Assembly (NCBI GenBank): GCA_003225455.1
Contig: QIAB01000017.1
Span: 6,321-39,844 of the forward strand
Direction of reading: 5' to 3'
DNA length: 33,524 nt
DNA from: Acidobacteriota bacterium
GTDB taxonomy: Bacteria > Acidobacteriota > Terriglobia > Terriglobales > Acidobacteriaceae
The notes under the pieces are model-generated. The model worked only from the letters and a program-made list of their open reading frames with translations. It was not told the DNA's origin and did no database searches. Made by a program: the position numbers and the translations under genes. Shown one piece after another: positions 31,872 through 32,336 of the stretch (its first letter is position 1; every line of letters begins with the position of its first letter).

Positions 31872-31874
31872 ACA

Positions 31875-31898
31875 TCAGTTGCCAGTTGTCAGTTGCCA
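31875..31898 (+). repeat. CAGTTGCCAGTTGTCAGTTG repeat, left arm
   Basis: A 24-base word starting CAGTTGCCAGTTGTCAGTTG begins three bases after the rpoB stop. Its reverse complement recurs at 32284-32307 with 22 of 24 positions equal, so the two copies flank the insert between rpoB and rpoC. Confidence 0.8.
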
Positions 31899-31975
31899 GG
31901 AACGAACTGACACTGGCTGCTCAACAGGTTTTATAGATGTCTTCGGTGTGACTCCAAGCCGATTTTATCGGAGAT

Positions 31976-32314
31976 TTGCTGTGTCTCTCTCACAAAGACA
32001 CGGCGATTGATGAGAACGGGAATGTTGTCGTACTCCGGAGCGGAATGTCGGTCATGGCGTTTGATGAAGATCAGGATGAAAGCGGGAACCGGGATAATTT
32101 GATCGCCTCGGGTACCGTTGAACCATCTCCAGATTCGCTTCGATGTCTCGGCTCGCGATGGGTTCTGCATATCGACGAGCAAGGAGTAAGACACGAATCC
32201 GATCTGCGCAAGAACGACGAAAGAGTTTTTGAAGAACAGTTCCGCAGGGCTTCAGCTCTCGGCTGCCGCGGGACGCAAAACAACTGGCCACTGACAACTG
32301 GCTACTGTTTTTGA
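31976..32314 (+). CDS. Hypothetical protein between rpoB and rpoC
   Basis: The frame from the TTG at 31976 gives 112 residues; it is open back to 31952 without an ATG. The central part reads [60 protein letters not shown] and GVRHESDL. This looks protein-like: acidic, with a DENG..VVLR.GM strand pattern and a strong LGSRWVL.ID..GV.HES ending. I recall similar short Acidobacteriota proteins but no function. The last ~25 residues run into the 32284-32307 repeat and are probably not native. The start is uncertain and the reading frame may be decayed. It occupies the normally tight rpoB-rpoC junction and is flanked by inverted repeats. The antisense frame over the same bases is less convincing. 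Confidence 0.45.
32284..32307 (-). repeat. CAGTTGCCAGTTGTCAGTTG-type repeat, right arm
   Basis: Reads CTGGCCACTGACAACTGGCT followed by ACTG, the reverse complement of 31875-31898 with two differences. It lies 30 bases before the rpoC start. Confidence 0.8.
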
Positions 32315-32336
32315 GAGCAGGAAGTGGAGGAACACC

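Follow-up and report, generated by a model that had tools for sequence, protein, structure and literature searches.

A probably structured rpoB-rpoC spacer with heptamer arrays and an occasional small gene, apparently exchanged as a block among Acidobacteriaceae

Heptamers of the GGGAATC type in Xanthomonas are dispersed over the genome, are intergenic to 89% and 93% and form convergent pairs in 70 and 75 cases; in the parts of that account drawn on here their function is given as unknown (PMC4692102). Intergenic direct repeats of the unit TAACTGA were reported from Beggiatoaceae, Cyanobacteria and Bacteroidetes, often near gene starts and, as far as the consulted portion of the study goes, with no established function; in its main genome one unit was favoured and only one indirect repeat was reported (PMC4679880). 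REP palindromes and the terminal inverted repeats (TIRs) connected with tyrosine-transposases are characterized, in the sections of the paper used here, as stem-loops that stand singly and bear a GTAG or CGTC tag, the TIRs being present also in Koribacter (PMC3733652). A structured RNA in the neighbourhood of the polymerase genes, the rpsL motif, is placed by the consulted part of its description 3' of rpoC, between rpoC and rpsL, in Pelagibacter (PMC2704228). Among the literature judged by title or by the start of the abstract, nothing was found on an RNA in the rpoB-rpoC spacer or on heptamer repeats in Acidobacteriota.

In the present study the junction of rpoB and rpoC was analyzed in a stretch of 33,524 nucleotides from a member of the Acidobacteriaceae (contig QIAB01000017.1), hereafter the window; its features are collected in Table 1. 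A sequence-only reading had described a 465-base segment between the two genes, bounded by 24-base inverted repeats with 22 matched positions and enclosing a protein-like frame, and in all these respects it was borne out: the gap measures exactly 465 nt, from the rpoB end at 31871 to the TTG at 32337 behind GGAGG, where the ribosome-binding site and comparison with relatives lead us to place the start of rpoC; 31876-31899 and the reverse complement of 32284-32307 are identical at 22 of 24 positions by direct reading; and the frame at 31976-32314 exists, its homologues being under selection at the protein level. The inverted arms can be extended to 29 nt with 86% complementarity, separated by 384 nt, and these CAGTTGC arms could pair into a long stem that closes off the entire spacer. 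When a three-unit heptamer pattern with up to three mismatches was searched, all four matches in the window fell into the two arrays of this spacer, where shuffled sequences let 0.03 be expected. With a probability of roughly 0.7, we read the locus as an exchangeable, structured intercistronic spacer that occurs in allelic forms and sporadically takes up a passenger gene, the forms being replaced by recombination in the flanks and not by transposition.

Table 1. Position of features at the rpoB-rpoC junction and of a second heptamer pair in the window.
Feature	Position	Strand	Basis or remark
rpoB	27405..31871	+	1488-aa ORF; its 3' end borders the spacer on the left
Left heptamer array	31876..31899	+	3.4 units CAGTTGC; Tandem Repeats Finder
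Right heptamer array	32281..32307	+	3.9 units CAACTGG, reverse-complement orientation; Tandem Repeats Finder
Gene-start remnant ATG TCT TCG GTG TGA	31937..31951	+	in frame with the homologous region; stop is codon 5
Small-protein homology region	31952..32206	+	85 codons; 54-70% identity to three compared homologues
Longest present ORF, TTG start, 112 aa	31976..32314	+	ORF list
Hairpin P2	32239..32274	+	stems GTTCCGC 32239-32245 / GCGGGAC 32268-32274; joint pick and aligned hairpin type
P2 loop GCTCTC	32255..32260	+	complementary to tail GAGAGC
Tail GAGAGC, putative pseudoknot partner of P2 loop	32313..32318	+	loop-tail permutation test
GGAGG (ribosome-binding site) and TTG start of rpoC	32326..32339	+	sequence; relatives similar
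Second convergent heptamer pair, AGTGGCT units	23013-23042 and 23054-23083	.	repeat finder; between a tuf end and tRNA-Trp/secE

For comparison, 110 distinct rpoB-rpoC spacers of the acidobacterial family were assembled. The last 99 amino acids of RpoB found a match in 122 of 160 family genomes; spacers were taken from 51 of the 57 loci L057-L113 (in the remaining six one gene motif of the two was missing) and from all 60 stretches L114-L173, for which 60 of 93 rpoB matches without a locus were used and 33 left out. L105, a duplicate of L104, was removed from this set and remained in the subsets for the arm-energy and loop-tail permutations. The earlier assumption that rpoB and rpoC are normally almost adjacent turned out to be wrong for this family, a length of about 100-250 nt being usual among gene-less spacers (102 of 109) and the medians of two sets lying at 183 and 186 nt. 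The small gene is absent from 108 of the 110, and these spacers do not exceed 313 nt. A heptamer array is found on the left in 35 spacers, on the right in 43 and at both ends in 27. Of these two-array spacers 25 carry no gene; the two that do, which together are L080 and L087, are those of the window and of genome G369. Rather than the same gene at this place in all relatives and no repeats, nearly the reverse was thus encountered, namely repeats in many relatives devoid of the gene, and the arms, being present in 25 gene-less spacers, belong to the spacer and not to the gene. At the left edge further repeats were seen, a CTCTGTG array in L109 and, directly after the rpoB stop in L063, L069 and L081, a GC-rich palindrome (GTAGCGCCGCCGTCC...) which replaces the heptamer array, the right array being kept. 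G421 shows two rpoB-rpoC junctions (L070, L085) with different heptamer types; with 9% contamination it probably represents two organisms.

The period of seven is specific: a strong lag-7 run occurs in 46 of the 110 spacers, against 0-3 at lags 4-6 and 8-12, and in 49 spacers lag-7 repetition at both edges stood out from 30 shuffles with z of 16.9 and 13.7. Arms are not essential, given that the right array lies below threshold in 67 of 110 spacers. Where both arrays are present, they match their own partner in 26 of 27 cases (mean score 20.4 versus 10.6 after swapping, sd 1.0, 300 swaps), and the pairing energy amounted to -43.8 kcal/mol for own and -34.3 kcal/mol for swapped arms, with none of 5000 permutations as good, in a subset of 44 spacers which includes the identical pair L104/L105 and from which seven without an anchor were left out. 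These swap and covariation tests count related spacers as independent, and with few spacer classes they stand for far fewer independent events. Mismatches between the arms gave no excess of G.U over A.C, neither in the 110-spacer set (43 versus 40) nor in a subset of 48 spacers (42 versus 44), so that the matching is left unexplained by RNA pairing and the notion of a helix held by RNA selection is unsupported. To a large part the matching may be accounted for by block exchange of whole spacers, and the likeness of the arms within one spacer may be due either to a process at the DNA level or to selection for a stem so long that single pairs do not matter. A DNA process, such as template switching or conversion between the inverted arms at replication, would keep the arms alike independently of selection on RNA; it agrees with the lack of strand asymmetry among the mismatches and with the observation that both arms switch heptamer type between close relatives. 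Nevertheless, we consider it a possibility with the odds against it, as the order of units agrees between the arms only weakly and not significantly (16 of 27 positive, p 0.06 in a unit-permutation test) and as replacement of the whole spacer explains many two-armed changes with no copying from arm to arm.

Heptamer arrays are also dispersed over the genomes. The 5.0-Mb genome of the window holds 30 matches to CAGTTNN (three units plus CAG) and 78 to GTCGTTN (three units), the reversed-pattern controls 0 and 2, and a single match to AGTACCN was found; since overlaps within one array are included in these counts, the arrays themselves are fewer. Among 12 family genomes searched, CAGTTNN was matched in 12, AGTACCN in 11 and GTCGTTN in 12, the controls of the latter being partly non-empty with up to 16 matches per strand, and the numbers per genome vary strongly (CAGTTNN 265 in G341 versus 1 in G200; AGTACCN 107 in G148 versus 0 in G045). 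Neighbouring arrays on opposite strands and not more than 600 nt apart were convergent in 21 of 22 cases in G148 and G045, a count for which one list took in 100 of 107 matches and whose 21 include the rpoB-rpoC spacer of G045. The possibility that arrays are always paired, and that the paired arms of the spacer follow from this, is ruled out by the genome of the window, where 11 of 13 CAGTT places, obtained by merging 20 matches, are without an inverted partner inside 700 nt; in G148 and G045 pairing is more frequent. Pairs in this genome are convergent at L207 and L208 and of reverse polarity at L200 and L202, and arrays of mixed type were paired at L211 and L213. In total 40 array stretches were examined, a non-random sample with 26 picked as pairs and 14 from the genome of the window picked for holding arrays; judged by eye and by mechanically called ORFs they appear to be intergenic, and their interiors are mostly unlike.

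Several other repeats were noticed alongside. Two heptamer-framed stretches of G006 (L194, L199) have an interior segment in common, ATTCCTCCGCCCCTCGCTT...GGAATGACAAA, perhaps another dispersed repeat. Within the window a second convergent pair, of AGTGGCT units, lies between the end of a tuf gene and tRNA-Trp/secE (23013-23083), and inverted octamer arrays (CACGGAGA, CTCCGTGC) at 10511-10611 and 12069-12097 are situated between genes for a thiolase and a 3-hydroxyacyl-CoA dehydrogenase, with decamer arrays (ATCCGCGTGA, AAATCCGTGT) near and beyond them.

The right part of the spacer likely contains a folded RNA. The loop of hairpin P2 is the complement of a stretch immediately upstream of the rpoC ribosome-binding site, and this holds through about ten sequence variants: the loop and tail of the window (GCTCTC/GAGAGC) recur in relatives as GCTCTTG/CAAGAGC, GCTCCTG/CAGGAGC, GCTCCGG/CCGGAGC and GAGCTCG/CGAGCTC, and further as GCTCCCGAAA/TTTCGGGAGC, GCTTCCGG/CCGGAAGC, GCTCCCAA/TTGGGAGC and others. 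When only the stem decided on the loop and only position on the tail, own pairs scored 10.4 and swapped pairs 8.47 (sd 0.25), and 0 of 5000 permutations were as high; the 49 spacers of this subset include the identical L104/L105, have hand-set tails in L060 and L066, and were reached after L100 and L113 had been dropped. When, in a later pick, P2 was chosen with a loop rule (GCTC/GCTT; 84 of 110 spacers), its mismatches showed 32 G.U versus 12 A.C (p 0.004). Without this rule the proportion was 12 versus 8 (p 0.50), and for the loop-tail pairing 35 versus 21 (p 0.08); the automatic pick of P2 is wrong in some spacers, and in the window it took another hairpin. Statistics on both P2 and loop-tail pairing ignore kinship, and independent spacer forms are few. 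A joint scan for hairpin and pseudoknot, which at the top threshold was positive in 58 of 110 spacers with 3.9 expected, was discarded as evidence because the arrays themselves dominate it; its pairs gave G.U 27 versus A.C 12 in P2 and 75 versus 56 between loop and tail. Folding energies relative to shuffles reached a mean z of -4.5 in 25 two-array spacers, -3.1 in 82 others and -3.23 in the window, and dropped to -1.3 in the two-array spacers upon removal of the left 48 nt, so that their excess stability is mostly due to arm pairing and not to P2. A search of 20 loci (62 kb) against Rfam returned no match at the gathering threshold; for the spacer of the window there were three matches below it (E 0.6-1.7).

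These observations bear on an explanation that requires no function at all, by which the arrays are products of slippage that accumulate in intergenic DNA, and hairpin and loop-tail complementarity by-products of GC-rich spacers and shared ancestry. It is in line with the missing G.U excess in the arms, the 11 of 13 partnerless CAGTT places, the mixed-type pairs L211 and L213 and the P2 test with p 0.50, and the consulted part of one report attributes the excess of bacterial heptamers to slippage of the polymerase (PMC4692102). However, arms matched in 26 of 27 two-array rpoBC spacers, a convergent polarity in 21 of 22 pairs of two genomes, the G.U excess in P2 under the loop rule and the agreement of loop and tail across about ten variants all argue against it, and we regard it as rather improbable.

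The small gene is real and, judging from its substitutions, under purifying selection: among four copies, each of the six pairs had a pN of 0.20-0.31 versus a pS of 0.68-0.89, with dS saturated in several of these pairs. Homologues were detected in 4 of 398 family genomes, and a profile search of 399 genomes of the class yielded eight hits at E <=0.01, four of them strong (two new, in G622 and G628) and four weak and partial. Altogether six genomes were found to carry the gene. Four of them (G048, G419, G622, G628) have it at a different locus, and the only rpoB-rpoC spacers in which it was detected are those of the window and of G369, a genome of a different genus. The homologous proteins comprise about 95-101 amino acids. 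Nothing above the cut-off was found in Pfam (one match at E 0.034 lay below it), and searches of NCBIfam, phage and solved-structure collections gave no match; there was one weak match to a plasmid in Paraburkholderia (31%, E 8e-4), and structure prediction gave no confident model (mean pLDDT 44). The copy in the window begins with an ATG at 31937, which is followed by an in-frame TGA at 31949, where the homologues of G048 and G369 are open at the 5' end. It is also without the homologous stop, its frame continuing through the hairpin into the right array, whereas the homologue of G369 stops before the hairpin. On account of the TGA at codon 5 and the lost stop this copy is probably decaying, though the TGA might be a sequencing error or translation might start at a later TTG.

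Inverted repeats flank a gene of patchy occurrence that is found at differing loci, and the gene of G369 is likewise framed, by inverted CAGTACC arrays; both agree with the sequence-only reading of the insert as a small mobile cassette with a passenger. Such a cassette would be non-autonomous: a transposase supplied in trans would mobilize it by its terminal inverted repeats, with the gene as cargo. The passenger did prove genuine, with four of its six genomes carrying it elsewhere, and the heptamer unit is dispersed; the repeats did not hold as ends of the insert, 25 of 27 two-array spacers having them at the same place and no gene, and the whole insert is single-copy, the 465 nt matching their own genome once, at themselves. 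Moreover, the framed gene of G369 sits at the same rpoB-rpoC site, and on the same side of the hairpin, with a different unit. At the four other gene loci (L023, L055, L216, L217) a lag-7 scan of the stretch around the gene detected no heptamer array, heptamer arms on its flanks were likewise missing from the output of the repeat finder, and at L023 an inverted repeat of another kind lies upstream. By eye, no target duplication was seen beside 31876 and 32307. We therefore consider transposition of this kind highly improbable. An element bounded by MITE- or TIR-like ends was rejected likewise, the ends being present where the insert is not, with no target duplication and no further copies. The repeat upstream of the homologue at L023 (G048) is MITE-like, with 24-nt inverted arms at 1259-1282 and 1383-1406 and 100 nt between them (GTGGGTGTTGAAAAACTC...), and at L216 (G628) the homologue is near an open frame which by eye resembles a tyrosine recombinase. 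The cassette-like unit would rather seem to be the whole spacer.

That whole spacers, with arms, inner hairpin and tail, behave as alleles crossing species and genera is suggested by comparison with their flanks. Spacer classes were set by motif and heptamer types assigned by eye; by hairpin and tail, 28 of 51 spacers fit three motif classes (I-III) and 23 fit none. Eight pairs of near relatives with different classes had rpoB and rpoC ends 89-96% identical and spacer z of -0.1 to 3.9, as for example G325 versus G162 (94.0 and 95.3% for rpoB and rpoC ends, spacer z 2.4). Eight pairs with like spacers across genera reached z of 6.5-16.2 with flanks mostly 83-89% identical, two of them using L103 or L107, which are unclassed by motif and were assigned to class II by eye, and six like-spacer pairs among near relatives reached 14.5-23.4. 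All these z values are based on single-letter shuffles with the last 32 nt excluded, L087 being compared over its last 140 nt; one unusable rpoB identity and identities of about 30-65% from ungapped offsets were excluded from the pair comparison. On the rpoBC tree the spacer class changes 12 times over 27 labelled rows, against an average of 11.2 for 200 shuffles of the labels, so that class has no detectable phylogenetic signal on this tree, which is weakly resolved and in which L080 fills 19% of the columns. A tree built from the DNA of first and second codon positions was set aside as of low quality, the long branch of L080 being an artefact, and its 13 changes of heptamer type in 20 rows were not used. 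Recombination in the conserved rpoB and rpoC ends is the simplest reading of these exchanges.

The same exchange could have brought the gene to the lineages of both the window and G369. Alternatively, the gene might be an old resident, inherited vertically and lost in most lineages with no transfer. In its favour, place and hairpin side are identical in two genera, and the two copies are deeply diverged (pS 0.68). But on the rpoBC tree G369 groups with G006, G418 and G200 (with L080 at 19% of columns) and the genome of the window with G052, and these neighbours are gene-less, which would call for numerous independent losses; furthermore, the gene lies elsewhere in G048, G419, G622 and G628. 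We consider long residence unlikely.

Under the preferred reading of an exchangeable spacer, each allelic form would bring its own P2 hairpin and its own tail ahead of the rpoC ribosome-binding site, often together with a heptamer array on one side or on both. The spacer as a whole would be swapped by homologous recombination within the strongly conserved ends of rpoB and rpoC. In the rpoBC transcript the heptamer arms could close the spacer, and pairing of the P2 loop with the tail in the rpoC leader may affect translation or processing of rpoC. A gene would be tolerated between the left arm and P2 because those elements stay intact, and a passenger at this position in two unrelated lineages was perhaps carried there by spacer exchange. 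A more far-reaching version makes the spacer a horizontally traded regulatory cassette, in which a small set of alternative RNA elements (heptamer stem, hairpin, pseudoknot with the rpoC leader) is swapped across species and genera by way of the almost unvarying polymerase genes that flank it and would re-tune the ratio of beta to beta-prime, with an occasional passenger gene and with a process that matches heptamer arrays genome-wide; this we put forward tentatively and think doubtful as a whole.

Spacers within core operons are usually regarded as inert. Here the spacer between the two largest polymerase genes appears to be replaced as a block among genomes that are alike in other respects, and in most forms a P2 loop able to pair with the rpoC leader is retained. 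If true, this would be a defined case of allelic regulatory replacement inside an essential operon and would offer natural variants for probing the balance of beta and beta-prime. It would also extend the unexplained intergenic heptamer repeats of Xanthomonas, cyanobacteria, Beggiatoaceae and Bacteroidetes to the Acidobacteriota and provide a site for observing how they turn over.

Compared with the described systems, as far as the consulted parts of their accounts allow, the arrays share with the Xanthomonas heptamers a tandem unit of 7 nt and many dispersed copies per genome (PMC4692102). They differ from GGGAATC in that CAGTTGC, CAGTTCT, AGTACCG and GTCGTTG have no G tract of three from which quadruplexes could form, that several types of unit occur per genome, and that an orthologous spacer is bordered by matched arms which vary along with its form. 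The units of the right array in the window, CAACTGA and CAACTGG, are one and two letters away from TAACTGA, to which neither is identical, and, unlike that system, the arrays comprise varied units, with inverted pairs a common occurrence in the two genomes counted (PMC4679880). With the REP and TIR elements the arrays have in common that they are small, dispersed, palindromic and paired in defined orientations, but in a comparison of arm architecture their arms are tandem heptamers instead of single stem-loops (PMC3733652). Like the rpsL motif, the P2 region is a candidate for a structured intercistronic RNA in the rpoBC-str cluster, here between rpoB and rpoC instead (PMC2704228). To the known heptamer repeats the present analysis would accordingly add, on the strength of sequence comparison, other units, a spacer apparently traded whole and a candidate leader RNA of rpoC.
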